A stretch of DNA of 64,000 bases. Origin: Pantoea sp. Nvir. Lineage in GTDB: Bacteria; Pseudomonadota; Gammaproteobacteria; Enterobacterales; Enterobacteriaceae. The notes beneath the pieces are model-generated. The model saw only the letters and a list, made by a program, of their open reading frames with translations. It was not told where the DNA came from and did no database searches. This document shows, piece after piece, positions 11,061 to 51,715 of this stretch (its first letter is position 1; each line of letters begins with the position of its first letter). The translations under genes were made by a program, and so were the position numbers. The DNA lies in assembly GCF_009829915.1 (NCBI RefSeq), contig NZ_SZZW01000001.1, forward strand, positions 124,001-188,000. The letters run 5' to 3'.

Positions 11061-11639
11061 CTGTATTTAATTTTAGTACTCTATGATTAGCCGTCACTTC
11101 GCTGAATTTTACTAGCGTATCAAAATACATGTCCTGATGGTAGCACTCTCAATCTTTAACTGCATAAGTAGTCCACTCCAGTAAGCTTTATCGTGGTTAA
11201 ACTTGATCTGCGGATAATCAACCAATGTTAATTTACGAAACTGATAGGGTAAATTGCTCTTATACGACTCAGAACTTTTCTCTGCTAGCATCTCAGATTT
11301 TTTTTTGCTATTGCTATATAGTTAAAGGTAAACATCGAGCTATTAAGGCACATAAAGTTAACAAAATTGGAGCATCACCCCAGTGCATCTTCATTTGTTC
11401 ACCCTTATTTTTCACTGTAATTAGTAAATTTTCACTTTTATGTGCCAAATGTAACATTGTTTATGTTAAAGGATAATTCGATTTTCGAATAGCGTATCCT
11501 AAAGAATATTTCATGGTTTTATAAGGGCTATTTTTTCTTTTAGGAAAATTAAATGTTCTAGAATCAAATGGTAGTATACGCTGCTTATAATGAGTAAAAG
11601 TTTTCTTTTAGCAAAAAATCCGGTTAAGGAGAAAAATTG
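11061..11639. other. Decayed region between opgG and opgC remnants
   Basis: This should hold the N-terminal half of opgG and the divergent opgG/opgC control region. I cannot align it. A short ribosome-site-like AAGGAG occurs near 11627, just before the opgC remnant. Confidence 0.5.
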
Positions 11640-12640
11640 ATAAAAAGTGCTAAAAACTGCAAGTATATATTTTCTCAATTCCATTCGCGCATATTTGATA
11701 TTGCTTAAATTTATGTTTCACATCTTCCTAATTGACTCCACAAAAAAATGGGCTACTAACAGTCAGGGATACTTGCTTTAGTGAACTGCACTGAATAATT
11801 TTATTAATTCATTTCATGTGCAGTAAGACTGATTACCCCTCCGCAATTTTTTACATTAGGCACTTTCTCAAAGAGGATAAAGAACTAAACAAACCCTTAC
11901 TTCTTACAGCAGATTCAATAATCTAATATGGAAATTAATTTCTTATGTTTCTTGTCGTACTAATCATATTGATCGTTCTTGGTATGGTTACTTTCAACTA
12001 TCTATAGCAGTGGAACTGTTATTGATTACATCATGAAAGGATAGTATGGGCTCAGTTTGATATTGGTAGTGTTAAGTTATTTGCTGTTGTGGGATACTTT
12101 TTAGTAAGCGGTATATATTTTCATGAGCTACTGAGGGAGAACTTGTCTAGTATTCTACTGAATCAGACACTTTTTTGCCCTTTTTTATGCTTCGTGTACT
12201 GGCTTGGTAATCACACTTGACTCAATAGAATATTAATGAGCTTGCATCCGTTAATGTACTTCGGCACAATTCTGGCCTTTTTCACTTTAAAACATAAGCT
12301 AGTTTTATAAAAACGGCAGAGTCTCTTCTATGAGGTTGATGTATGTATTTCTCCTGATAGGGCCCTGCATGTTTAATGGCTACTGTATCTTTAAGTATCG
12401 TCTGAGTAACTCATATTCACAGTGTATTATCTAGCCGATGTCTCTTTATTTATCTAGTACATGTACATGGCTGCTCTACGGCATTTTATTACGCTACTGA
12501 TATAAAAAATACTGGGTTTTCTCATTGTTTTGATGATTGTATTGGGTGTGATATTTATACTCTATAAGATAGATCTATTGAAATTATCGCTATGCTTTCT
12601 TTTCTATTTATTCTTCTTTAGATAAATAGATAAACCGTTA
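11640..12640 (+). pseudogene. opgC: opgC (glucan succinyltransferase) remnant
   Basis: OpgC adds succinyl groups to periplasmic glucans. Plus-strand fragments run in E. coli order: FLNSIRAYLILLKFMFHIFL ([20 protein letters not shown]) from 11671, NNFINSFHVQ (NDFIHSFRMQ) near 11800, ITPPQFFTL (LLTLPQFIML), LMFLVVLIILIVLGM (LWFLLVLVVMTTLCV) near 11945, QTLFCPFLC (QTLFYLPFF), YFGTILAFFTLKHKL near 12265, SLFI-stop near 12445 and LGFLIVLMIVLGVIFILYKI ([20 protein letters not shown]) near 12510. Many stops and several frameshifts. It is divergent from opgG, as in E. coli. Confidence 0.88.
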
Positions 12641-12794
12641 GTTTTGGAGAATTTTGGATATCTATAAAAACGAGCAGCGCTAAACTTTAAAAGTTATTTA
12701 ATCACAGTAACCACTAAACTAGACGCGCCTTTTATGTTTGAGAGAACATAATATTAGTTAGCATCATTAAGAAAGATATGGATATAAGAACTAG

Positions 12795-12878
12795 TACCCG
12801 GAGCGGGACTTGAACCCGCACAACCTAATGGCCGAGGGATTTTAAATCCCTTGTGTCTACCGATTTCACCACCCGGGC
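12795..12878 (-). tRNA. leuZ: tRNA-Leu (UAA anticodon)
   Basis: Reverse strand GCCCGGGTGGTGAAATCGG start, anticodon loop TTTAAAA with stem AGGGA/TCCCT, long class II variable arm and T-loop GGTTCAAGTCC. Very like E. coli leuZ. The 3' end after the discriminator A reads CTA, not CCA, so the tail must be added by CCA nucleotidyltransferase. Third in the order pgsA-glyW-cysT-leuZ, as in E. coli. Confidence 0.97.
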
Positions 12879-12883
12879 AACGG

Positions 12884-12954
12884 AGGCGCGTCCCGGAATC
12901 GAACCGAGATAGACGGATTTGCAATCCGCTGCATGACCACTCTGCCAACGCGCC
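12884..12954 (-). tRNA. cysT: tRNA-Cys (GCA anticodon)
   Basis: Reverse strand GGCGCGTTGGCAGAG start, anticodon stem-loop GCGGATTGCAAATCCG, T-arm with GGTTCGATTCC, acceptor closing ACGCGCC. The bases after discriminator T are CCG, so the encoded CCA has lost its last base. Middle gene of the tRNA cluster. Confidence 0.97.
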
Positions 12955-12999
12955 TTTATTCTTTGTGCCAATCAGGATAACCCTCCTGACCTGCTAACC

Positions 13000-13075
<76 letters not shown>

Positions 13076-13138
13076 GTTATTCAGCAAATACAGTACCTAC
13101 TGCTTCTTATCCTATAGAAGCATTGCTGCCATTTGATA

Positions 13139-13173
13139 GCGACATATTCTACTGACTTGACGCGCTGAGTCAA
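13139..13173 (-). promoter_or_regulatory. Sigma-70 promoter of the Gly-Cys-Leu tRNA cluster
   Basis: On the minus strand TTGACT (13173-13168), a 16-base spacer, then TAGAAT (13151-13146). It lies between the end of pgsA and glyW, about 65 bases before the mature tRNA. Confidence 0.7.
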
Positions 13174-13227
13174 TAAAATAATTATCTGCACAGATTATCC
13201 ATTGGATGTTTTTTTAAATTTGATTGA

Positions 13228-13776
13228 TCAGCTATCGAACAAATCGCTATGTGCGGCACTTAAGTATTGATACATCGACCAAAATGTAAGCATAGCAGCA
13301 ACATAAAGCGCCACAACACCAACAGAAATGACCAGAGTATTAGGTCTCCACAATAGCGCAACCAACGACACCATCTGTGCTGTAGTCTTTATTTTACCGA
13401 TAGAAGAAACAGCGATGCTACTGCGTTTTCCTATTTCAGCCATCCACTCGCGTAGTGCTGATATAATGATTTCTCGGGCAATCATAGCGGTAGCCGGCAA
13501 AGTGATCCACCAAGCATGAAAATATTCTGCTACTAGCACTAGCACAATCACCACCATAACTTTATCAGCCACTGGATCAAGGAAGGCACCAAAGCGTGTG
13601 GTTTGTTTCCATCGCCTCGCAAGAAAACCGTCAAACCAGTCGGTTGCGGCGGCAATAATAAACACTAATGCGGTAACGCATGGCGCCCAATGGAACGGGA
13701 GATAGAAAGCTAGAACGAAAAAAGGTATAAGCACAACTCGAAATAGGGTGAGACATGTCGGAATATTAAATTGCAT
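13228..13776 (-). CDS. pgsA: CDP-diacylglycerol--glycerol-3-phosphate 3-phosphatidyltransferase
   Basis: Inner-membrane enzyme that makes phosphatidylglycerophosphate, the committed step to phosphatidylglycerol and cardiolipin. The product has 182 residues, as in E. coli. The CDP-alcohol phosphotransferase motif is complete: [13 protein letters not shown] followed by [11 protein letters not shown] (about residues 57-82), with four hydrophobic segments. It lies between uvrC and the tRNA cluster, all on the minus strand, as in E. coli near 43 minutes. Confidence 0.98.
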
Positions 13777-19154: not shown

Positions 19155-20219
19155 ATGAAAAAGACAGCTGTCGCAATTGCAGTGGCATTAGTTGGTTTCG
19201 CCACTGTAGCGCAGGCCGCTCCGAAAGATGACACTTGGTATACTGGAGCTAAACTGGGCTGGTCTCAATACCACGATTTTGGTTACTACGGTAACGGTTA
19301 CGGCAACAGCGATGGCCCAGTCCGTCATTCTCAGCTAGGCGCTGGTGCTTTCTTAGGTTACCAAGTTCATCGGTACGTAGGAGTAGAGTTGGGTTACGAC
19401 TGGTTAGGTCGTATGCCTAATAAAGGCACTTTAAACAACGGTGCATTGAAGTCACGAAGCTTTCAGTTATCTACTAAACTAAGTTACCCACTTGCCGATG
19501 ATCTAGACATCTATACCCGTCTTGGTGGGACGCTATGGCGTGCTGACGTGAATCAGGAAAAATTCATAGGCGGCCGCATTAGTGACCATGATACGGGGGT
19601 GTCGCTGCTTGCAGCGTTGGGTGTTGAGTTTAATTTAAGTCGGCACTGGGCCACCCGAGTGGACTATCAATTTGCGGGTGCTAGCGGCAATGTACACACA
19701 ATGGGTACAGAACCGAATAACACCATGCTGAGCCTGTCTGTATCTTACCGTTTCGGTGATCAGAAGAAAAAACATGCTCCGCCAGTTATAACGCCAGCTT
19801 CAGTTGTTGAAGCCAAGCGGTTCACCCTAAAATCTGAGGTTCTATTCAACTTTGATAAATCTACTCTGAAGCCAGAAGGGCAGAAAATTCTGGATCAGCT
19901 GTACAATCAGCTGAGCTCAATGGATCCGAAAGAGAGCTCTATTATAGTTCTAGGCTTTACTGATCGCATTGGCTCAAACATGTACAACCAGAAATTGTCT
20001 GAGAAACGTGTTCAATCGGTGATTGACTACCTAGTATCTAAGGGTATTTTGTCTAAGAACATTTCTGCACGTGGCATGGGTAAATCTAATCCAGTTACCG
20101 GAAGTTCCTGTGACAACATAAAAAACCGTGAGAATCTGATTGAATGTTTAGCTCCTGATCGCCGCGTGGAAATCGAGGTGAAAGGTGTTGAAAACGTTAC
20201 GACTCAGCCTCAGTCTTAA
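19155..20219 (+). CDS. ompA: Outer membrane protein A
   Basis: OmpA is an eight-stranded outer-membrane barrel with a periplasmic peptidoglycan-binding domain. The signal peptide [21 protein letters not shown] is cleaved before APKDDTWY. The barrel runs to about residue 200 and the OmpA-like domain follows ([39 protein letters not shown]), including the paired cysteines (SSCDN, IECLAP). Length is 354 residues against 346 in E. coli. I start at MKKTAV after GAGGCGCAAC, matching the E. coli leader, and not at the ATG 18 bases upstream. Retention suggests an outer membrane still anchored to murein. Confidence 0.98.
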
Positions 20220-20232
20220 TTTAGACGACATA

Positions 20233-20257
20233 ATCAACCCCGTTTTGCGGGGTTGAT
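20233..20257 (+). terminator. ompA terminator
   Basis: ATCAACCCCG, loop TTTTG, CGGGGTTGAT: a 10-bp perfect GC-rich stem 13 bases after the ompA stop. No long T-run follows. Confidence 0.75.
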
Positions 20258-20394
20258 CGTGTATCATACCTTTGACTTCAATTGCGTATATTGTCGTTCA
20301 TCATTCATTTTAATTTGCCGAGGAGAAACAACTGTAAACTACGCTATAAAACAGATAGTTAAATGTAATAGATTTCTTTAGATCCCATATTTTT

Positions 20395-20555
20395 AAGGCA
20401 TTGTCTCTGAATGATAATTTAGAAGAGCTTGTAAGTTGCTCGCTGTGACTTTTGTTATTGAAGCATCGTGTGATTAACTCGATTCCCAATGTTTTTTTAG
20501 CAGATATCTTCTTCGAGTATCTACTTTTAAAATTTTCTAGTTATTCTAATTTCAT
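20395..20555 (-). pseudogene. matP: matP (Ter macrodomain organiser) remnant
   Basis: MatP binds matS sites and organises the terminus. On the minus strand from an ATG at 20555, MKLE-stop-LENFKSRYSKKISAKK matches the start of E. coli MatP ([21 protein letters not shown]) residue for residue. Other frames then give RYLLKKHWE (KYLVKKHREG) and ELITRCFNNK (ELITRYIEAS). TAA at codon 5 and at least two frameshifts show it is dead. It lies between ompA and divergent lonH, as in E. coli. Confidence 0.85.
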
Positions 20556-20708
20556 CAGAAATATGACCTTAATTATACAAGAAATCCAAGGGATACAGTA
20601 AGGAAAAAGGATGAATGCCGATAGGGGATGGCTGTGCTACATAACCGTACTTAACAAAAGAGTTCCCTGTATAAACTTGCTTTTTTTTAACTGAAAAAAA
20701 TAATTATT

Positions 20709-22454
20709 TTGAGCAGCTCTCAACTTTCCTGGCAAGACCTACAGCCAAATATAAGCGGATATTCTTCAGTTTTCTCGCTTATTGCTGAAGAAAAGACCGA
20801 TAGCTTGGCAAAGGTGCAACCACGTTTACTAAATGCTCTTAAGTATATCCATCAGCAGACCGAAGGCTTTCCGCTATTACTAGTATGTAGTCAGGAAAAT
20901 GTTGATTACCTAAAGTTGATTGCACATCAGATGCAGCTTATTGCCAGTGAACCGTGTAACCTATATGGTGGGCACTATCATATTAATACAGATTACGTGA
21001 CACTCCATCCACCAAGCGATCCATCTCATCCTTTTACCGTTACGGGTCAGGTCCACTTCGCCGAATGGATTGAAAATAATCAGCTCTTTGGTTATGTACG
21101 GCTGCGTCACGATGGGATTCAACTTGAACCTGGACTGATACATCGAGCTAATGGCAGTACCCTAGTACTCTCACTGCATACCCTGCAGACACAACCCCTA
21201 TTATGGTTACGTCTAAAGCGCGCTATTCAGCTAGGAAGTATCGAATGGCAATCGACCGATGAACGCTCTCCTTTGCCAGTTTCCATCCCACCTCTCCCTC
21301 TAAACCTGAAATTAGTGCTGTGCGGAAATCGTAACACTCTAGCAGCTTTTCAAGAGAACGATCCAGAACTGTATGAGCTAGCTACGTATACCGAATTCGA
21401 AGAGAATTTGCAAATCGTCGACGAGCATGATCTGCTTGCTTGGTGCCGCTGGACTCAGCATCTAGCGCTAGAGGCCAATTTTCCTATTCCCCAAATGAAT
21501 TTTTGGCCTCCATTAATCAGAGAAGCTGTGCGCTATACCTACGATCAAAAAGTACTACCGCTGTGCCCACGCTGGCTACTACGTCAGATACGTGAAGCTT
21601 TTATGCAGGGACACACTCTAAGTGAAGCGACATTATTGAGCGCCCTTAAGCTACGGAACTGGAGAGAAGCATTCCTTGCTGAACGTATGCACGATGAAAT
21701 TTTGCTGAAACAGATCATCATTGAAACCAATGGTGAACTTGTAGGCCAAGTCAACGGACTTTCTGTAGTCGAAGTCCCTGGTCATCCACGTCCTTGGGGT
21801 GAACCCTCGCGCATCACCTGCGTAACATATCCGGGTGACGGCGAATTTACTGACGTTGAACGCAAAGTCGAGCTAGGTGGCAAGATACACGCCAAGGGCA
21901 TAATGATTATGCAGGCCTATTTGATTGCTGAATTAGAACTAGAGCAGCAGCTGCCTTTTTCTGCCTCGTTGGTCTTTGAGCAATCTTATTCTGAAGTTGA
22001 CGGCGATAGCGCCTCGCTTGCCGAGCTTTGTGCGTTAATCAGCGCGCTTGCTAACCAACCTGTTAATCAGCAAATCGCTGTTACAGGCTCAGTAGATCAG
22101 TTTGGCAACATTCAACCAGTAGGAGGTTTAAATGAAAAAATTGAAGGTTTTTTCACTATCTGTAATGCACGTAAATTGACCAGCCAGCAGGGCGTGATTA
22201 TTCCTGCTTGTAATGTTCGAAACTTGAGCCTAAACCAAGATGTAGTAGATGCTGTTGAACAAGGACTCTTTCATATATGGGCTATCAATCGAGCTGATGA
22301 AGCGCTACCCTTACTAACTCGTGTCGCATGGCGTAGCGAAAAGGAGAATGGCGACTGCCTCTTGAGTAGAATTCAAGAGCGTATTATCCAGTTCAATAAT
22401 CATGAGGCTAGTTATCGCCCATGGCCATTTAGTTGGCTGAACTGGTTTAAATAG
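20709..22454 (+). CDS. ycbZ: Lon-like protease LonH (YcbZ)
   Basis: A Lon-family serine protease homologue whose AAA part is degenerate and whose C-terminal protease domain is conserved. The catalytic serine lies in EVDGDSASLAELCALI (near residue 440) and the lysine in GGLNEKIEGFF (near 480). Length is 581 residues against 586 in E. coli, with end RPWPFSWLNWF as in the family. The only start giving the family N-terminus (LSWQDLQP) is TTG at 20709, with no clear ribosome site, so expression may be low. The cellular substrate is not well known. It is followed by fabA, as in E. coli. Confidence 0.94.
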   Translation: MSSSQLSWQDLQPNISGYSSVFSLIAEEKTDSLAKVQPRLLNALKYIHQQTEGFPLLLVCSQENVDYLKLIAHQMQLIASEPCNLYGGHYHINTDYVTLHPPSDPSHPFTVTGQVHFAEWIENNQLFGYVRLRHDGIQLEPGLIHRANGSTLVLSLHTLQTQPLLWLRLKRAIQLGSIEWQSTDERSPLPVSIPPLPLNLKLVLCGNRNTLAAFQENDPELYELATYTEFEENLQIVDEHDLLAWCRWTQHLALEANFPIPQMNFWPPLIREAVRYTYDQKVLPLCPRWLLRQIREAFMQGHTLSEATLLSALKLRNWREAFLAERMHDEILLKQIIIETNGELVGQVNGLSVVEVPGHPRPWGEPSRITCVTYPGDGEFTDVERKVELGGKIHAKGIMIMQAYLIAELELEQQLPFSASLVFEQSYSEVDGDSASLAELCALISALANQPVNQQIAVTGSVDQFGNIQPVGGLNEKIEGFFTICNARKLTSQQGVIIPACNVRNLSLNQDVVDAVEQGLFHIWAINRADEALPLLTRVAWRSEKENGDCLLSRIQERIIQFNNHEASYRPWPFSWLNWFK

Positions 22455-23469: not shown

Positions 23470-23750
23470 TTATTGTAATGATATCGCTGCATTAGCAAAT
23501 AGCTGCTGATCAAGTGGGTTGGCCCAAAAATTATTAGAAGAGGTAACGTATTTTACATCCTGATCTGATAGACCAAACCGTTGCTCAATAGATAATCTGG
23601 AACCACAACCTGTTACACCCATAACTCCGGCATCGGCGCTTTTCTGTTGCTACGAATCTGTACGGTTCCTACTTTTGATGGCAGCTGGTAGTAGGTATTA
23701 TAAAAGCTGCTTCCGCACGCGCTTATTAGCACTACTGTGCAAAACATAAT
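23470..23750 (-). pseudogene. pqiC: pqiC lipoprotein remnant
   Basis: PqiC is the outer-membrane lipoprotein of the Pqi lipid-transport bridge. The minus strand gives a leader with lipobox-like ISACGS, then NTYYQLPSKVGT, PELWV-stop-QVVVPDYLLSNGLVYQ and, after a frameshift, SDQDVKYVTSSNNFWANP and LDQQL. E. coli has YYQLP, LLWVEQVTVPDYLAGNGVVY and SDVKYVIANNNLWASPLDQQL. The C-terminal half is missing. Confidence 0.88.
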
Positions 23751-23754
23751 GATT

Positions 23755-24740
23755 TTTTTTATTATTTCCCCCTCTTTGGGTTTGGATTCTGACTATTTTT
23801 AGCATTAAATATTAGAGCGTTGCTCTTGATATTTAGAGTTTTTAAGACTGGCTGAAGTTCACGTAATACCTGATCAAGACGTTGCATATCTGTCACTAGC
23901 TTAGTATATATCTGTGATCCTGTTTGTAGCCCTTTCATACTTCTATTAAGTTCTTACAAAGTTTTTCGTATGTCTTCTGGTAGAATTTTTATCGTTTTAC
24001 TGGAAGTGATTTGATGAAGATTATTCAACGTGCCATACATTTCTTGTAATGCGCGCTGACTTTCTTTCAGAGTGTGGGTCGCCTCCATTAGCATGTTAGT
24101 TAGTGGTAAAGAATTGATCTTATCTAACCCCCGCCACCAGCTTTTGCTGGATCTGGCTCAAACTACTCCTGATTGTCGGAATAGTTTCATAACCTGAAAT
24201 TTTATCCTGGACTTTGTAAACGGGCACATTGTTATAAAAATCAAGATCTATATAGAGAGAACCAGAGAGTAAGTTGCCTATTTTCAGAGAAGCGCACAGT
24301 CCGTACTTTCTGTTATCCTTTAGATTTTGTTTTATATTAAAATACTGTCCTAAACGGTTAACAAAGCGCTCGGGTTCGATGCGGATTAGCACAGGCACGC
24401 GATAGTCGTTATTCAGTGTCTGATTCAGGCCTTCTATTATAAAGGTATAAAGGGTACTTCTGCGACAGTTCCTAGACGTATACCGTGAAATTCTACCGGT
24501 GCACCAACTTGTAGTCCCCAAATTGAGTCGCTAAAAAAAACTAAGAAATCAATATGATTAGTGTAAGGTGAGTCTTGAATGTTGCGCTGATCTTCGAACA
24601 GATGATACACCGTATTATTAGCTACAGTCTCCCCTAACTTCCAATTATTAGGAACTTCAAAGCTAACGCCACACGCTAAATAGCGTGGTCAACGACGCTT
24701 TCATCTTTTACAGCAAGATTGTTCCAGTTCAAGCTCCAGG
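23755..24740 (-). pseudogene. pqiB: pqiB (MCE-family tunnel protein) remnant
   Basis: PqiB is the MCE-domain protein of the Pqi intermembrane lipid system. A 400-base frame (24120-24521) carries NNDYRVPVLIRIEPERF, GNLLSGSLYIDLDFY and SQIQQKLV, all matching E. coli PqiB. Downstream in other frames: ELNRSMKGLQTG and DMQRLDQVLRELQPVLKTLN. Upstream: SLTTLFS, GVSFEVP, DQRNIQDSPYTNHIDFLVFF and GAPVEFHGIRLGTV. The two N-terminal MCE domains are missing and several frameshifts separate the pieces, so the gene is dead. Confidence 0.9.
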
Positions 24741-28201: not shown

Positions 28202-29599
28202 ATGAGCGTGGTGCCTATAACGGATATATTGCAGGGTCGCGTCGCAGTTAATAGTGAAGTCACAGTGCGTGGTTGGGTACGTACCCGAAGAAATTCAAAA
28301 CTCGGTCTTTCCTTCGTCACGGTTTATGATGGTTCCTGCTTTAATTCAGTTCAAACTATAGTCAATAAATCTCTAAATAACTATCAGGATGAAGTTCTAC
28401 ACCTTACTACGGGCTGTTCAGTTATCGTTACCGGTACGGTAGTTGTGTCACCTGGACAGGGTCAGATGTTTGAGATACAAGCGAACCAAGTGAAAATCAT
28501 CGGCTGGGTCGACGACCCCGATATCTATCCGATGACGGCAAAGCGTCATAGCATCGAATATTTACGTGAAATGGCACATCTGCGTCCACGCACTAACTTG
28601 ATCGGCGCCGTGGCACGTGTGCGTCACACTCTAGCACAAGCTCTACATCGCTTCTTTCATGAAAATGGTTATTTTTGGGTTTCCACACCGCTTATCACCG
28701 CCTTGGATACCGAAGGCTCCGGTGAAATGTTCCGTGTTTCGACTCTGGATTTAGAAAACTTGCCGCGTACTCCGCAGGGCTCTATCGACTTCAACAAAGA
28801 TTTTTTCGGTAGGGAGGCATTTCTTACTGTTTCTGGTCAGCTAACAGGTGAAACTTACGCCTGTGCACTGTCAAAAATTTATACATTTGGTCCGACTTTC
28901 CGTGCGGAAAACTCCAACACTAGCCGCCATTTGGCGGAATTTTGGATGCTAGAACCTGAAATTGCTTTTGCCACATTGGATGACGCTGCTTCGCTCGCTG
29001 AAGGGATGCTGAAGTACGTATTTAAAGCAGTGCTAAATGAGTGTACCGATGATATCATGTTCTTTGAGAACGTTAATAAAGAGGTAATTGGACGCTTGCA
29101 AAGCTTTATTTCTACAAACTTCGTACAGGTAGATTACACAGATGCCATTACTATTCTTAAAAAATGTGGTAAAACCTTTGTAAACCCAGTTTCCTGGGGC
29201 ATTGGTCTCGCCTCTGAACACGAGCGTTATCTTGCTGGGCAATACTTTAAGGCACCGGTAGTAGTAAAAAACTACCCGAAAGAAATTAAGGCATTTTATA
29301 TGCGCCTTAATAAAGATGGTAAAACAGTAGCGGCGATGGATGTACTAGTGCCAAGTATGGGTGAAATTATTGGTGGTTCTCAACGCGAAGAACGTCTCGA
29401 CGTACTAGAAGCACGTATGGAAGAAATGGGATTTAATAAAAAGGATTATTGGTGGTATAGTGACCTACGTCGTTACGGTACTGTACCGCATTCAGGCTTT
29501 GGTTTAGGGTTTGAACGCTTAATAGCTTATGTTACTGGGGTACAAAATATAAAAGACGTTATCCCTTTCCCACGTACACCCCGCAATGCTAATTTCTGA
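28202..29599 (+). CDS. asnS: Asparaginyl-tRNA synthetase
   Basis: Charges tRNA-Asn in the cytoplasm. Class IIb enzyme of 465 residues (466 in E. coli). An N-terminal OB-fold anticodon domain ([14 protein letters not shown]) is followed by the catalytic core with motif 2 [21 protein letters not shown] and motif 3 [15 protein letters not shown] near 430. GAGAG lies before the ATG. Next to the porin gene, as in E. coli. Confidence 0.99.
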
Positions 29600-29897
29600 G
29601 GATAAATATTTATTAGAATAAATTCATACAGATAAAAAGTATAGCTCTGATGGTTTTCTTGTGTTTTAGCAAACTGCATTGCTTTAAAGAGTGCATGTAT
29701 ACTTGTATTGATTAATTTCTTTATAAAAAAGGAAAGAAAGATTACGAATTAATATCATTCCTAGGATAGAATGACTCGATTTGTTGTTCGTGATGGAAAG
29801 ATGTGCATGTAACCACAAAAAAGACAGCAGACCTTTTTCCATGTTTTTTAATGGCAGTAGCACAGGCGTCCTAAATAAACTTCAATGAGGATAATAA
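29600..29897. other. asnS-porin intergenic region
   Basis: About 300 bases that should hold the porin promoter and OmpR sites. I cannot place them. GAGG precedes the start. Confidence 0.4.
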
Positions 29898-30998
29898 ATG
29901 ATGAAGCTCAATATTATTGCATTTGCTATTCCCGCCTTATTAGCTGCTAATGCAGCGAATGCAGTCGAAATCTATAATAAGAATGGTAATAAGCTAGAGA
30001 TATATGGGAAGGTTGCTGGGGTTAAGTATTTTCAAGATCAAAGTGGCCAGAACGATAAAACTTCTGTTAACTTCGGGTTCAAAAGTGAATCTAAGATTAA
30101 AGATCAACTGCTCGGGTACGGTCAGTGGGATTACAGTATTCAGGCCAATAACTCCGAATCATCTAACGCAAGTAGCAACAAGACCCATTTAGGTTTTGCT
30201 GGTCTTAAATTCGGTAAGATGGGTTCAATTGACTACGGTCGTAACTACGGCGTCGTGTATGATGCAATAAGCTGGACTGATGTGTTACCAGCATTCGGTG
30301 GCGACTCTAGCTACTCAGATAATTTTATGAACGGTCGGGGTACTGGACTGTTAACCTACCGCAATAAAAATTTCTTCGGCTTGATGGATGGCTGGGACTT
30401 CGCAATGCAGTATCAAGGTACCAATAATCGTGAAGACATACGATGTGCAAACGGCAAAGGTTGGGGTCTATCAACCTCTTATACCTCTCCGATTGGTTGG
30501 GGCATTGTTGGCGCATATAGCAATAGCAACCGTACTACCAGTCAAAATGCTGCTGCATTGCAAACTAAGGAAAATATAATCGGTGTCAGCCAAGAAGCAG
30601 AAAACTGGGCGGCAGCGATCAAATATGACGCTCATAATATTTATTTAGCTGCAATGTATGGTGAGAACCATAACTCTACTCCGATCACGGTAGCTACAGA
30701 AAAAAGTTCTACTAGTACGGCTTTTGCTAAAAGAGTATAGAATGTTGAGCTGGTTATGCAGTATAAATTTGATTTCGGTTTGAGTCCATCTATAGCTTAT
30801 GTTCAATCTAAAGCTAAAGGCATCAAAGGCATGGACGACACTGAATGTACTAAATATATGGAGTTAGGTGCAAATTACTACTTCAATAAAAATATATCAG
30901 TATATGCTGACTACCAGCTTAACCAGTTGGAGGCGACTAATCCACTGAACCAGAATATCGGTAATACTTTAGCAATAGGCTTGGTTTACAAGTTTTAA
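29898..30998 (+). pseudogene. ompF: OmpF/OmpC-type general porin, interrupted by one amber codon
   Basis: Trimeric outer-membrane diffusion porin. The reading frame is continuous for 367 codons except for TAG at 30738-30740 (codon 281). Signal peptide MMKLNIIAFAIPALLAANA is followed by VEIYNKNGNKLEIYGKV; loop L3 region (WTDVLPAFGGDSSYSDNFMNGR) is present; the C-terminus ends in phenylalanine (LAIGLVYKF) as barrel recognition needs. The stop stands where E. coli OmpF has glutamine (FANKTQDFEAV; here FAKRV-stop-NVELV), so it is a simple CAG to TAG change. Either a very young pseudogene, a sequencing error or a suppressed codon. The asnS-aspC position says ompF. Confidence 0.9.
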
Positions 30999-31010
30999 GT
31001 TAATGGTTAT

Positions 31011-31038
31011 AAAAAACGGAGCCTTGGTTCCGTTTTTT
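31011..31038. terminator. Porin terminator
   Basis: AAAAAACGGA, loop GCCTTGGT, TCCGTTTTTT: a 10-bp stem closed by an A-run and ending in six T, 13 bases after the porin stop. Confidence 0.85.
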
Positions 31039-31209
31039 ATTCCTAAAAGAATAGCACATTAGATATGGGATTCTTTTTTATTTTTATCAGAATTTAAAAT
31101 AACAGTTACAGCTGACGATTTTTTGCTTAAATGTATTATTGGTAATGCACAATACTGCTATTAACCTCAGAGCTTATTCCCTCAATATAACACTACTTGG
31201 ATAAGACTC

Positions 31210-32403
31210 ATGTTTGAATTTATACCTGCGGCACCTGCCGATCCTATTCTTGGGCTGGCCGATCTCTTTTACGCTGACGATCGTCCGCAAAAAATTAATC
31301 TCGGCATCGGCATTTACAAAGATGAAATTGGAAATACACCGGTGCTAACGAGTGTTAAAAAAGCTGAGAAATACCTGCTAGAAAATGAAACTACGAAAAA
31401 TTATCTGAGTATTGAAGGTCTGACCGATTTTGTTCACCATACTCAAGATCTGCTTTTTGGTGCAAAAAATCTCTTGATTACTTCTGGACGAGTTCGTACG
31501 GCACAGACGCCTGGCGGCACCAGCGCACTTCGTATTGCAGCTGATTTCCTTGCTACTCAAACTAGTGTAAAACGAGTCTGGATCAGCAATCCTAGCTGGC
31601 CAAACCATAAAAATGTATTTACTTCAGCATGTCTAGAAGTGTGTGAATACGCTTACTACGACGCGAAAAACCATATACTAAACTTCGATGGTATACTTGA
31701 TGCACTACAAGAGGCTAAAGTAGGTGATGTAGTGCTTTTTCACGGCTGTTGTCATAATCCTACTGGTATCGATCCTACGGTAGATCAGTGGAATCAGCTA
31801 GCGCAGCTTTCTCATGCTAAAGGCTGGCTGCCACTATTTGATATCTCCTACCAAGGTTTTGCTAGAGGACTGCATGAAGATGCGGAAGGGCTACGTATCT
31901 TCGCTGCCTTGAACCAAGAACTAATTATTGCCAGCTCATACTCGAAAAATTTTAGCCTCTATAACGAACGTGTAGGGGCCATTACGCTAGTTGCCGCTGA
32001 TGCAGCGACAGTTGATATTGCTTTCAGTCAAGTAAAATACATCATTCGAGCCAACTATTCTAACCCACCAGTGCATGGCGCAGCAATCGTCGCGACTATT
32101 CTCAGTAGTCAAGTACTACGCACCATCTGGGAGAAGGAGCTATCCGATATGCGCCTGCGTATTCAACATATGCGTCGGCTTTTTGTAAATACTCTGTCGG
32201 AAAAAGGATCGTTACACGATTTCAGTTTCATTATCCAGCAGAATGGCATGTTCTCATTCAGCGGACTGACCGAAAAACAGGTGATCCGGTTACGCAACGA
32301 TTTTGGTATTTATGCCGTACATTCAGGGAGAATTAACATTGCTGGGATAACTCCTGACAATATCTCAATTCTGTGCAAAGCAATTATTGCGGTCATGAGA
32401 TAA
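31210..32403 (+). CDS. aspC: Aspartate aminotransferase
   Basis: PLP enzyme interconverting aspartate and oxaloacetate with glutamate/2-oxoglutarate. It also handles aromatic amino acids, so it can complete the pathway fed by aroA. Length is 397 residues (396 in E. coli). Visible: [37 protein letters not shown], and PLP lysine in [15 protein letters not shown] near 246. Convergent with gloC. Confidence 0.98.
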
Positions 32404-33824: not shown

Positions 33825-35618
33825 TTAGAGTAACAATTTACCAACGTGCTCCAGCAGTTGAACGTCGCAATGAGCAAGATTATCGTAATTGTAAATATCT
33901 GTTCTGAACTGTGGGTTGCCATCATCGGCAACCCAAGCAGTTAGATAGTATAAATTGACTGGAATACAATGCCTAATCTGCACATAGCGCGTTGAACCCT
34001 GTTTTAACTGATCTGAAATACGAGAAGTATCCCAGCCCACTTCTAGCAATAGAAGACTCGCTAACTCTGAAGCTTTATTAACTCGCACACATCCTGAACT
34101 CAGAGCTCGAATATCATTTTGGAAAAGATCATGGTTTGGCGTGTCATGTAAATAAATAGCGTCTGAGCTTGGCATATTAAACTTATAACGACCCAGAGCA
34201 TTCATTTTGCCTGGTGCCTGACGCAAGCGATAAGGAAAAGAAGAAGCTGAGATTACATTCCAATCAATTATATTAGGATTAATGATCTTGGGATGAGTGC
34301 GCGAACCGGAAAATAGTGTATAACCGTGTTTATAGAGATACCCCGGGTCCTGCTTAAGTTTAGGAAGAATGTCTTTACGCACCAGCTTCCTCGGAACGTT
34401 CCATGGAGGGTTAAGCACCACATTGTTGATAGTGCTACGCATAAGAGGAGTTTTACGGTCTGGGCGACCAACAATTACTCGTGACGACAGAATTTTAATG
34501 CCATTATTGTAATAGGTCAAAGAGAAATTAGGGATGTTCACCATGATTCCATTATGCATATCTACTGGAAGTAGACGCAACCGTTGAATATTTAGGGCTA
34601 ATAGCGCGGCGCGCATTTGTGGTGTAACATTAAGCCATTCACGGGTACGTCTACCAATAGTGCCGTCGCTACCCAGGCCCTGCCACCTCTGAAAACGTTT
34701 AACCGCTCTTACTAACTTAGGGTCATACAATATTTTGTTATAATTATTTCCAACCGTTCTGTTCATCATATCTTTTACTGCTGCTGAAGGTCTGTGCTCT
34801 AGTAAATTGTTGACGTCCACACTGGAGGACTCTACCAAAGGCAAAATATGGTCCATGGAAATTCTAGCTTTTGGTGGTACTACATCATCTGTGCGCTTAA
34901 GGCTCACTACTTGCGCAAAAAGCACGCCAGTTCTCCTTAAAATTTCACGCAATGCAGGAACGTCGTTGCTGATCTGACCAGGCCGCAGTGTTTCATGATT
35001 TTTCAATCTTGGCCAAGGGCGTGAATCAATCAGCAGCTGTCTAAGAGCATCGTGCATTGGTGGATACTGTGGATGCTGGGGTACTAGTGAGGAGAGAAAG
35101 GTTACAGAGGAACCAGAAGGCACCGCATTTTGCCACTTGTTTACTAGTGCTACTGATGGTTGTTCCAGTTTGTAGGGCACGTTGCCGTAAAGGCAGCGTT
35201 CACCTTGAATTGGTATGCTGGAGACAAACTGCAGGTAACCCAGCATGGCGTCACTGAATATTACATCACGTGCAAAATCGCTTAGGTTGGGATCGATTAG
35301 GCGATCGACCCAACGCGTGAATTGAGGTTGCACGCCAGACATTGCTACTTCCACTAACTGTTGCTGAAATTGCTGTACGGCTGCCCGATCCCTCCACATT
35401 GGCTGCATATTATGTGCTGCATAAAGTAAAGCAAGATATGCCAAATAGAAGGGAGGCTCTTTATCAGCAAACTCTTGGAGCAGTCGCTGCTTGCTTTCAC
35501 TGATAGATATGGTGGTGTGTTCAGCGCACATCGCCTGCGTAAAATGTAGCGACGTAGAAAATATTTCTAACGCTAGTAGAACAAAGACACCATTATTATT
35601 TTTAATACTCAGCAACAT
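33825..35618 (-). CDS. ldtD: L,D-transpeptidase LdtD (YcbB)
   Basis: Makes mDap-mDap (3-3) cross-links in murein in the periplasm. 597 residues against 615 in E. coli. After a signal or anchor segment (VFVLLALEIFSTSL, about 10-25) come a helical region, a peptidoglycan-binding domain (VRAVKRFQRWQGLGSDGTIG near 310) and the YkuD catalytic domain (VIVGRPDRKTP near 390, HDTPN and SSGCVRV near 510-530 with the active cysteine). Neighbours mepK and gloC follow on the same strand. mukB, normally upstream, is gone. Confidence 0.96.
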   Translation of the reverse strand: MLLSIKNNNGVFVLLALEIFSTSLHFTQAMCAEHTTISISESKQRLLQEFADKEPPFYLAYLALLYAAHNMQPMWRDRAAVQQFQQQLVEVAMSGVQPQFTRWVDRLIDPNLSDFARDVIFSDAMLGYLQFVSSIPIQGERCLYGNVPYKLEQPSVALVNKWQNAVPSGSSVTFLSSLVPQHPQYPPMHDALRQLLIDSRPWPRLKNHETLRPGQISNDVPALREILRRTGVLFAQVVSLKRTDDVVPPKARISMDHILPLVESSSVDVNNLLEHRPSAAVKDMMNRTVGNNYNKILYDPKLVRAVKRFQRWQGLGSDGTIGRRTREWLNVTPQMRAALLALNIQRLRLLPVDMHNGIMVNIPNFSLTYYNNGIKILSSRVIVGRPDRKTPLMRSTINNVVLNPPWNVPRKLVRKDILPKLKQDPGYLYKHGYTLFSGSRTHPKIINPNIIDWNVISASSFPYRLRQAPGKMNALGRYKFNMPSSDAIYLHDTPNHDLFQNDIRALSSGCVRVNKASELASLLLLEVGWDTSRISDQLKQGSTRYVQIRHCIPVNLYYLTAWVADDGNPQFRTDIYNYDNLAHCDVQLLEHVGKLLL

Positions 35619-36134
35619 CCCTGCCCCTCATTTTTTTACTGCTCAGAATTTCTTGGATTGCTGTAAATTAGCTACTACTCGTTTTCTAAGTATACAAAGA
35701 AAAATCGGTATTTTCCTTACAGTGCAAAATTCGTTATCAGGTTACTCGATACGAATATGGTAAATATTGATTCGATTGAACCTACAAGTTTTTCCCTTCC
35801 ATACGGTTTTAGTAGTACTATAAGTAAGTTCCTAGTCTGTAGGAAAACAGTATATACAGACAACATTAACATATTTACGCATTAGTATTTTTATAGAGAA
35901 ACTCCTCAAAAAACCTTCAGAGCGTCAATAGCTTGGTTATAAAACCTCATTAAAAAGACACACTCTTCATCCAGAAACGGAAAATTTGAGTAACTAAAAT
36001 TACGATTAGCTAAATATGCAGTTGTATACCATCATTCAATACATTTCCAATAACTGTTAGAGATCGCTGTTCCGAGAAACAATCTTCAAATAGGGGCATT
36101 ATTGCGGAGAGTATTGCAGATAATCGCTATGTGC
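35619..36134. other. Gap where mukFEB would lie
   Basis: E. coli has cmoM, mukF, mukE and mukB (about 7 kb) between the kdsB side and ldtD. Here kdsB and ldtD are only about 1 kb apart and I recognise no muk remnant. Confidence 0.6.
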
Positions 36135-36330
36135 GTGAATAGGTTATTCACCCTCACTTCCTTCTCAAGGATACTACCACCAAAACGTCTGGTTATATAT
36201 TACGGCCTCGGCGGAGGCCTTATTGAAATAGATCATGAGCAAAATTGCATGCCCTGTATTTCTGGTATATTACAAAATTACAAGACATTGAAAAAACATA
36301 CATATATCTATCCTCCAGCAACGCATTAAT
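36135..36330 (+). pseudogene. Possible elyC (ycbC) N-terminal remnant
   Basis: A plus-strand frame reads VNRLFTLTSFSRILPPKRL then VIYYGLGGGLIEI, and ends LQNYKTLKKHTYIYPPATH. The start and glycine-rich hydrophobic stretch resemble E. coli ElyC (MLFTLKKVIGNMLLPLPL, LLIIGAGLAL, LQPVADRLLRPIESTYPT). elyC is antiparallel to its neighbours here in E. coli, which fits the strand. The match is weak. Confidence 0.35.
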
Positions 36331-36625
36331 TTTTTATTGTTGTACAGTATTATAGTGTTTAAGAGGAGGAATATTTTCTTTACAAGAATCACATCAGAGA
36401 GGGTGTCGTAAAATATATATGAAAATTTCATAACTATTGACTGATGATTTTAAGTTGTCAGAGATAACCCGTTCTAAACAACTTAGCGCCAATTATAATT
36501 TCAAATTAAATATTCTTTCCTAAAGAATAATCACTCTATATTAGATAACGGATAACGCAGCGTGTAAAAATAGGGGAACGCCAATTGATAAAAATACCAA
36601 GATTATGGAAGATCCTTAGAAAATT
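36331..36625. other. Gap upstream of the kdsB stop
   Basis: About 300 bases, AT-rich, downstream of kdsB. ycbJ is expected in E. coli. Nothing recognised. Confidence 0.45.
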
Positions 36626-37375
36626 TTAGCACTGTAGCAAAGCACGAACGCGCGCCAGATCTTCAGGTGTATCTATACCTATACTAGGCACTGTTTCCAC
36701 TGTATCAACATATATTTTTTCGCCGTACCAGAGTACACGAAGCTGCTCTAAAAGTTCGATACGCTCCAAAGGACATGGTTCCCAAGAAACATAACGACGA
36801 ATAAAACCGGCATAATAGGAGTAAATACCGATATGGCGCAGTAATCCACGTCCGATTATTTTATTAGAAGTTGCGTAGAGATCACGATCCCAAGGGATAG
36901 TGGCGCGAGAAAAATAAAGCGCATAACCTTGTGCATCTATCACTACTTTCACTGTGTTCTGATCAAATACCTCTTCCAAATCATGAATAGGCGCTGCTAG
37001 TGTAGTCATTCCTGCTTGTGTACTCTCAAGATTTTCCGCCACCCGATACACAATTTTTGATTGTATCAATGGTTCGTCACCCTGCACATTAACAATGATT
37101 TCATCATCGGCGAACCGGCAAATTTTGATTACCTCAGCTAGCCGATCAGTGCCTGACTGATGGTTGGCACATGTCATACAGACTTCACCACCTGCCTCTT
37201 CTACCGCTGCTTTCACGTCAAGGTGATCCGTGGCTACGATAACACGATTAGCACCTGATTCACGTGTACGCTCCATCACATGGATAACCATCGGCTTTCC
37301 GGCAAAATCGACCAACGGTTTGCCGGGTAAGCGCGTTGAAGCATAGCGCGCAGGAATAATTACTGTAAAATTCAT
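36626..37375 (-). CDS. kdsB: CMP-KDO synthetase
   Basis: Activates 3-deoxy-D-manno-octulosonate as CMP-KDO for lipopolysaccharide inner core synthesis, in the cytoplasm. 249 residues (248 in E. coli). Nucleotide-binding signature [13 protein letters not shown] near 10-22, NVQGDEPLI near 97 and C-terminal GIDTPEDL. Its start overlaps the ycaR stop by 4 bases, so the two are likely translationally coupled downstream of msbA-lpxK. Confidence 0.98.
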
Positions 37376-50998: not shown

Positions 50999-51715
50999 CT
51001 ATTTATCCTCAATAAATTCGGTAACTTTAGAGGTAAGATTCGGCGACGTGTTATTCACCACTACAGCTTTCTTCTTATTTTTCGAAAATTCATTGTCACA
51101 CAAACAATTATCACAATGTAGTATATACACCACCACTCTGCCAATGTGCTCTACAATGGTCATCCATGACCATCCGGTATAAATTGTAATGCCAGCTGCC
51201 AATGTGCAGAGCAGTATCAATGTACCAGTCAACGGACTAAAACGAAGTGCGATAATATAGCTCACCAGACTTCCAATAACTCCGCCGGATGCAAAATAAA
51301 AAATATCATTAGCATTAAGAGCAGCCAAGCCACAGGTAGTAAAAATTAGCAATAACATACCAATTAAACGCAATCCGATCTCGAAATAGTCGAAGCCACT
51401 CTGCTTTTCGTACTGTCGAGAAATAATCCAAAAGAGACTAATGATAACTAACGGAATAACGTAAGCTATAATGCCAAATATGAAGAACAGCGTATCTGCC
51501 AACCAAGCTCCGATCCTTCCGCCAAAATTGGAAATTTTTTTGTTCCAAGCAGTTTGCAACCAGCTTGGATCTGAAGGATTAAAACTTACAAGAGATACCA
51601 TTAGATAGACAGATAAAAGCAAGAAAAAAACAAAAAACAACCCTCGCAGAAAACTTCCACTACCGAGTAATTTTGACAAAATACTTTTCTCGTATTCTGT
51701 GTGTTCCTGATTCAA
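50999..51715 (-). CDS. ftsK: FtsK N-terminal membrane domain only (truncated DNA translocase)
   Basis: FtsK couples division and chromosome dimer resolution. Only the first ~200 residues, the four-span membrane domain, plus a 38-residue tail remain (238 in all; E. coli 1329). Spans: about 24-46 (GLFFVFFLLLSVYLMVSLVS), 73-99, 117-135 and 145-178, ending in YTGWSWMTIVEHIGRV. No Walker motifs. In E. coli this N-terminal part alone is the portion essential for septation, so the stub may be selected for; the motor has decayed downstream. It precedes lolA and follows lrp, the E. coli order. Confidence 0.9.
   Translation of the reverse strand: MNQEHTEYEKSILSKLLGSGSFLRGLFFVFFLLLSVYLMVSLVSFNPSDPSWLQTAWNKKISNFGGRIGAWLADTLFFIFGIIAYVIPLVIISLFWIISRQYEKQSGFDYFEIGLRLIGMLLLIFTTCGLAALNANDIFYFASGGVIGSLVSYIIALRFSPLTGTLILLCTLAAGITIYTGWSWMTIVEHIGRVVVYILHCDNCLCDNEFSKNKKKAVVVNNTSPNLTSKVTEFIEDK

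Follow-up and report, generated by a model that had tools for sequence, protein, structure and literature searches.

The ompF locus and its in-frame TAG codon

Within the window, by which we mean the whole 64,000-nucleotide stretch of the Pantoea sp. Nvir genome analysed here, the genes asnS, ompF and aspC occur in the same order as in E. coli, with an intact asnS upstream (28202-29599, + strand) and an intact aspC downstream (31210-32403, + strand). The ompF frame between them (29898-30998, + strand) is identified by its match to PF00267 as well as by synteny, begins with ATG, and runs for 366 codons, the last encoding Phe, to a TAA at 30996-30998. The preliminary description had reported a frame of 367 codons, a figure that includes the terminator codon, and its account of a frame open throughout apart from one amber codon was borne out. 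The sole internal stop is the TAG at codon 281 (30738-30740, + strand), which lies outside any homopolymer and within a contig of 491,625 bases. Translated under the standard code, the listed ORF (29898-30740, + strand) gives 280 aa comprising a signal peptide (residues 1-22; 29898-29963, + strand), whose putative cleavage site was placed by alignment with E. coli OmpF, followed in our structure model by the first eleven strands and half of strand 12. The untranslated tail (30741-30998, + strand), consisting of 85 codons and the TAA, covers what remains of strand 12 and then strands 13-16, ending in the C-terminal Phe. Six codons past the TAG, a new in-frame ATG at codon 287 (30756-30758, + strand), aligned with Ala in all 38 same-genus relatives, represents a possible restart for an 80-aa piece without a signal peptide.

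Sequence elements flanking the frame were also found to be conserved. A TGAGG at 29886-29890 (+ strand), conserved in all ten aligned relatives, is a likely ribosome-binding site, and a 12-base run identical in 10 of 10 aligned relatives (29792-29803, + strand) is a putative leader or promoter element; over the upstream region, 124 of 200 invariant columns are retained. Since a promoter scan of this region returned four sites compared with 5.5 in shuffles, the integrity of the promoter is judged from conservation only. Downstream lies a terminator hairpin with a T run (31009-31040, + strand), conserved in relatives, which retains 16 of the 17 columns invariant in ten aligned relatives and folds at -15.7 kcal/mol (z -5.86); a simple consensus terminator scan gave no entry at this hairpin. 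With Phe as the final residue and the hairpin and T run conserved beyond it, the terminal phenylalanine and terminator are intact, as previously described.

Membership of the porin family is unambiguous for the read-through frame, with Porin_1 (PF00267) covering residues 28-366 at 358.3 bits against a gathering score of 23.7, such that chance is of no concern. Three porin models are listed for the read-through protein, headed by the NCBIfam OmpF equivalog PRK10002 (468.6 bits, under its cut-off of 583), and none of the three attains its cut-off; the best solved-structure match is OmpF. For the same-genus comparison we took the best porin match from 41 of 60 other same-genus genomes. The porin adjoins asnS in 38 of these 41, and aspC as well in 37 of the 38, the contig ending at the single remaining locus; the three matches situated at other genomic places were left out of the alignment. 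The more distant set derived from 80 named loci, of which 45 lie at the asnS-ompF-aspC place and 44 were used. One locus cut by a contig end and one from another family of the order were dropped from the named set, and five named relatives whose fetched sequence starts with I rather than M were kept in the alignment.

All 38 aligned same-genus syntenic orthologues encode Gln at codon 281 (CAG in 35, CAA in 3), and Gln is also found in 39 of the 44 other syntenic orthologues, with Arg in the remaining five. E. coli OmpF (3hw9 chain) likewise has Q at the aligned place, in keeping with the residue given in the preliminary description, and the single C-to-T change proposed there, from CAG to TAG, suffices to account for the stop. 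Third-position G+C is 0.39 here, compared to 0.64 and 0.62 in two relatives, from which it would follow that this lineage tends to accumulate C-to-T changes. Among the matches listed, the best porin matches of same-genus relatives have no internal stop. A few other porin matches in relatives do carry internal stops (at least three genomes), so other members of the genus also have interrupted porin copies, alongside further copies.

To place codon 281 within the barrel, we used a structure model of the read-through protein built from a 24-sequence alignment (mean pLDDT 79.0, pTM 0.77), which comprises 16 long strands and a short N-terminal one at 23-26, and compares to solved OmpF with a TM of about 0.82 (7fdy, 2zfg). 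Residue 281 falls inside the twelfth long strand (272-289) of 16, with strands 13-16 beyond it, consistent with the earlier expectation that the upstream product would lack the last barrel strands. A 16-strand barrel ending in Phe, the residue found at the C-terminus of 82 of 82 aligned orthologues, is obtained only with the stop read through and is not formed by the 280-aa product. Because the latter ends within strand 12 and lacks the C-terminal Phe, no barrel is expected from it, and on this model the lost strands would be needed for function. The C-terminal Phe of outer-membrane proteins is recognised by BAM, and a product without the final strands and terminal Phe would escape assembly.

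Decoding of TAG and fidelity of the assembly

We considered whether the TAG might be read with some efficiency, either by a near-cognate tRNA-Gln (CTG or TTG) or through a change in decoding, to yield some full-length OmpF. Both tRNA-Gln genes (CTG, TTG) are present, and PMC7918605 reports that in-frame stops whose dN/dS falls below 1 are widespread in bacteria. Suppression had been among the options listed in the preliminary description, together with a search for an amber-suppressor tRNA. Reading each of the genome's 41 tRNA matches with ARAGORN revealed no CTA anticodon. Loss of RF1 was rejected, as prfA is intact (534.6 bits, a 364-aa open frame without stops), and TAG serves as an ordinary terminator, ending 5 of 31 long window ORFs, counted here as ORFs not each verified as genes. 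The suppression option was accordingly not borne out, and the ompF case gives no evidence for unusual decoding.

A reference-free scan for genes split by a single stop, with at least 60 open codons before the stop and at least 50 after it, was applied to the window and 20 further stretches, covering 464 kb (the window plus 400 kb) or about a third of the genome. Of 87 candidates, 10 were coding-like on both sides, and upon NCBIfam scanning all ten proved to be adjacent separate genes. The ompF gene itself lies below the scan threshold (tail score of 0.044 versus 0.05); when the threshold was reset to the scores of ompF, 9 of the 87 candidates remained, namely ompF and eight of the adjacent gene pairs. 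Thus, within 464 kb, and by a scan that misses short or poorly coding-like cases, no single-stop split gene was found besides ompF, the one other TAG case with coding-like flanks being the ppk-ppx boundary. Also observed in the scanned stretches was a single 793-codon open frame containing both hisD and hisC (C5:180001-200000 stretch, 11299-13677, - strand), with NCBIfam hisD followed by hisC, which may be a gene fusion through a lost hisD stop.

These results bear on two alternatives. That no other gene with an in-frame TAG occurs in the 464 kb, together with the missing CTA tRNA, the intact RF1 and the ordinary use of TAG, argues against leaky reading of the stop, which we consider improbable. 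The same scan bears on the possibility that the base was miscalled or misassembled, or was taken into the consensus from a minor strain, in which case the real ompF would be intact. A lone substitution in 366 otherwise undamaged codons, with the terminator and a large part of the upstream region retained, is what such an error would leave behind, and the affected gene is the last match of a usually important one. Against this, the site is outside any homopolymer and inside a 491,625-base contig, and, given that the scan, with its limited sensitivity, turned up no other single-stop split gene, the assembly is not visibly error-prone in this way. We regard an error as unlikely, if somewhat less so than leaky reading.

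Constraint and divergence on either side of the stop

Selection on the two parts of the gene was examined using a codon model in which branch lengths were shared, fitted to eight taxa, comprising the Nvir sequence and seven of the 38 relatives. Before the stop, omega on the Nvir branch is 0.187 versus a background of 0.187; after the stop, it is 0.228 versus a background of 0.134. Fixing omega of the Nvir tail at 1.0 was rejected (LRT 51), fixing it at 0.4 gave an LRT of 6.9, and tying the ratio of Nvir branch to background across both parts gave an LRT of 3.62, just under 3.84. Separate fits yielded an omega of 0.171 before the stop (background 0.162) and 0.301 after it (background 0.217), with no difference between the Nvir branch and the background in either part (LRT 0.00 before, 0.78 after), and omega of 1 was again rejected for the tail (LRT 16.6). 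All of these values are rough, since the Nvir branch carries about three neutral changes per codon and synonymous sites are near saturation. The rejection of omega 1 after the stop implies that the stop arose late on this branch; by simple mixing, which is itself rough, the fraction of the branch over which the tail would have been unconstrained is about one tenth and no more than about one third.

Measures of divergence point to some excess change in the tail. The ratio of divergence after to before the stop is 1.22 for the Nvir gene versus 0.56-1.11 among the 38 relatives and 0.74-1.08 among the 44 others, and in a protein tree, when scaled to the remaining branches, the Nvir branch is 2.1-fold longer for the tail (bootstrap 1.15-3.75, with 2 of 200 replicates at or below 1). 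When columns were matched for conservation, the tail excess was not significant, with z of 1.61 for residues new to the column and 1.73 for departures from the majority, or 0.92 when only strand columns were considered; changes at invariant columns are also similar in frequency (16 of 106 before the stop and 7 of 40 after it). The pre-stop background could moreover be inflated by diversifying selection acting on loops of the free-living relatives. Taken together, these comparisons place the stop late on the branch and weakly suggest some decay since. Of the "very recent pseudogene" named in the preliminary description, the pseudogene is the best supported reading, and the tail is constrained; that it is very recent sits less easily with a tail found more diverged in two tests, the matched test being not significant.

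Substitutions at otherwise conserved positions were identified in both parts of the protein. Two cysteines, 183 and 317, occur in the mature part of the Nvir OmpF, compared with none in 82 of 82 aligned orthologues. N58 and H97 align with E. coli R42 and R82, which we take to be pore constriction positions, and are Arg in 37 and 36 of the 38 same-genus relatives, respectively. A132 and C183 similarly replace charged residues, 31 of the 38 having Glu and 36 of the 38 having Arg, respectively; K16, D113 and R132 of OmpF are retained. As read from these residues, the pore had been altered before, or along with, the stop. Four further changes, N278K, K279R, A287M and Q290K, fall where all 38 relatives are invariant and within ten codons of the stop (30729-30767), a clustering that was noticed post hoc.

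The constraint seen on both sides of the stop would be as expected of an intact gene with a sequencing error, yet an error of one base leaves unexplained these four neighbouring changes as well as the tail divergence in two tests. Purifying selection on the tail, with omega about 0.23, would likewise fit leaky reading, but is equally explained by a late stop, and the proportionally greater divergence of the tail in two tests runs contrary to a maintained read-through product. Slightly less probable than leaky reading as such is a particular form of it, in which a trickle of full-length OmpF through the leaky TAG would constitute a down-regulating step toward a porin-free membrane and maintain the tail constraint. 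Least probable of all, and in our view highly unlikely, is that the 280-residue product is retained and functional, either as a truncated porin or as one half of a split porin completed by the 80-residue piece from the ATG at 30756. Unchanged constraint before the stop, a tail that is relatively more diverged, and the presence of that new ATG are in its favour; however, the 280-residue product ends mid-strand without the C-terminal Phe of its orthologues, the conservation-matched excess in the tail is not significant (z 1.6-1.7, strand columns 0.9), and a split porin is made unlikely by the absence of a signal peptide from the restart piece.

The constraint data are not uniformly favourable to a pseudogene either. 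Relaxation would be expected on both sides of the stop, yet omega before it equals the background, when for asnS and aspC omega is about doubled on the Nvir branch.

The last general porin of a reduced genome

A protein search and a PF00267 search each return exactly one place for Porin_1 in the 1.43-Mb Nvir genome, compared with 3-8 porin matches in each of 59 other same-genus genomes, some of which are pieces of one gene. A second intact porin that would render ompF spare was thus sought by both searches of the Nvir genome and not found, and a search of the genome for LamB gave no match. PF13505 identified OmpA (a 360-aa frame) and a small-barrel match in a frame of 182 aa, and gave a weak match to the tail of ompF. 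EnvZ is intact (74% to E. coli and stop-free), as is BamA, and the tested outer-membrane machinery therefore persists while its usual main client is interrupted. Loss of the porin with EnvZ and BamA intact would be unusual, a further point against a pseudogene.

Absence of porins was also surveyed more widely. In a survey of 40 genomes, all six without any porin match belong outside the family. A loose first look at 99 genomes of the family, with a cut-off that left the Nvir gene alone listed, found no porin candidate in 13 of 35 other genomes of 1.6 Mb or less and one to three unconfirmed candidates in each of the remaining 22; no zero-candidate cases were found among larger genomes. Among the small genomes of the family, losing porins thus looks to be common.

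The surroundings of ompF are those of a genome undergoing reduction. The window has a G+C content of 39.5%, and 46% of it is noncoding by the ORFs used. We scored 68 E. coli K-12 genes in the window, spanning trxB to matP but leaving out ycaQ, which was cut between two fetched stretches; 20 are intact-like, 6 disrupted, 1 a trace and 41 absent. Upon closer inspection, the disruption of gloC corresponds to a whole 209-aa ORF whose alignment overruns the natural stop, and those of ssuB and uup both fall on the msbA place, the latter two being taken as cross-hits. This leaves ompF, with its one TAG, together with pqiB and pqiC, which are frameshifted, partial remnants at 23500-24679 (- strand). 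The trace is ftsK, present as a 238-aa N-terminal piece (50999-51715, - strand). Within the window, no match was found for mukF, mukE and mukB, which in E. coli lie in the kdsB-ldtD interval (window 35618-36626), or for matP, which lies in the ycbZ-ompA interval (window 20219-20709), and the MukBEF/MatP set may accordingly be gone, as judged from a search of the window only. Decay near ompF, as exemplified by pqiB, pqiC and the 41 absent genes, is as expected for a reducing genome. Most decay in the window is old; the genome is well into reduction, with ompF the freshest visible loss in this stretch, and the organism is probably a host-dependent symbiont.

We consider it probable that the last Porin_1 gene found in this reduced genome has been inactivated by a single CAG-to-TAG nonsense change, making it a recent nonsense pseudogene; an ordinary, fairly recent gene loss is most likely, as opposed to a new reading of the code. 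Ribosomes would terminate at codon 281, releasing a 280-residue product which, cut off halfway through strand 12 and lacking strands 13-16 as well as the C-terminal Phe, would be unable to close the barrel or trimerise. Such a truncated OmpF would presumably be degraded in the periplasm, and uptake might then rely on OmpA, small barrels or host supply. Given that the visible damage consists of one stop with no frameshift, the change would be recent relative to the long branch of the lineage. The locus may thus represent an early step in the loss of the last general porin, in which the rest of the gene is whole and both EnvZ, its likely regulator, and the assembly factor BamA are still present; captured at this step, porin loss would provide a useful time point for the dismantling of the symbiont envelope.

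Compared with E. coli OmpF (b0929, PF00267), the Nvir gene shares the asnS/aspC place, the full-length family match, the 16-strand model, the C-terminal Phe and the signal peptide, but differs in its in-frame TAG at 281, its two cysteines, a score below the OmpF equivalog cut-off, and the Asn and His aligned with R42 and R82. A literature search returned no publication tied to ompF of this genome, which need not mean that it is undescribed. Among other symbionts, the Buchnera of Cinara cedri is given in the table and channel section of PMC3246468 as having OmpA only, and that of Baizongia as having neither OmpA nor OmpF; elsewhere in the same paper one sentence mentions OmpF in all four Buchnera strains, and in pea-aphid Buchnera OmpF ranked sixth among 400 proteins (PMC3246468). 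The C. cedri and Baizongia strains resemble the present case in combining a reduced symbiont genome with the lack of a working general porin, OmpA being kept in C. cedri; according to that table and section their OmpF gene is absent, whereas here it is almost whole and carries a single stop. Sodalis pierantonius SOPE keeps OmpC and S. glossinidius OmpF, at least one of which is argued to be necessary (PMC3914690). Premature stops are among the damage inactivating genes during genome reduction in SOPE, as in Nvir, but SOPE has 1,771 predicted pseudogenes, a G+C content of 56% and a retained OmpC (PMC3914690), whereas here the last porin is affected and decay in the window is mostly old. For Moranella, OmpF is described as the sole OMP that the consortium retains (PMC3620526), and it is also listed in PMC3804617. 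Constrained in-frame stops are further described in PMC7918605 as widespread and short-lived in bacteria; the ompF site resembles them in its CAG/TAG alternation and surrounding dN/dS below 1, but those stops are orthologous and common to two or more genomes, whereas the ompF TAG occurs in one genome. Loss of OmpF is already on record in some Buchnera, and the present case fits among these known cases.
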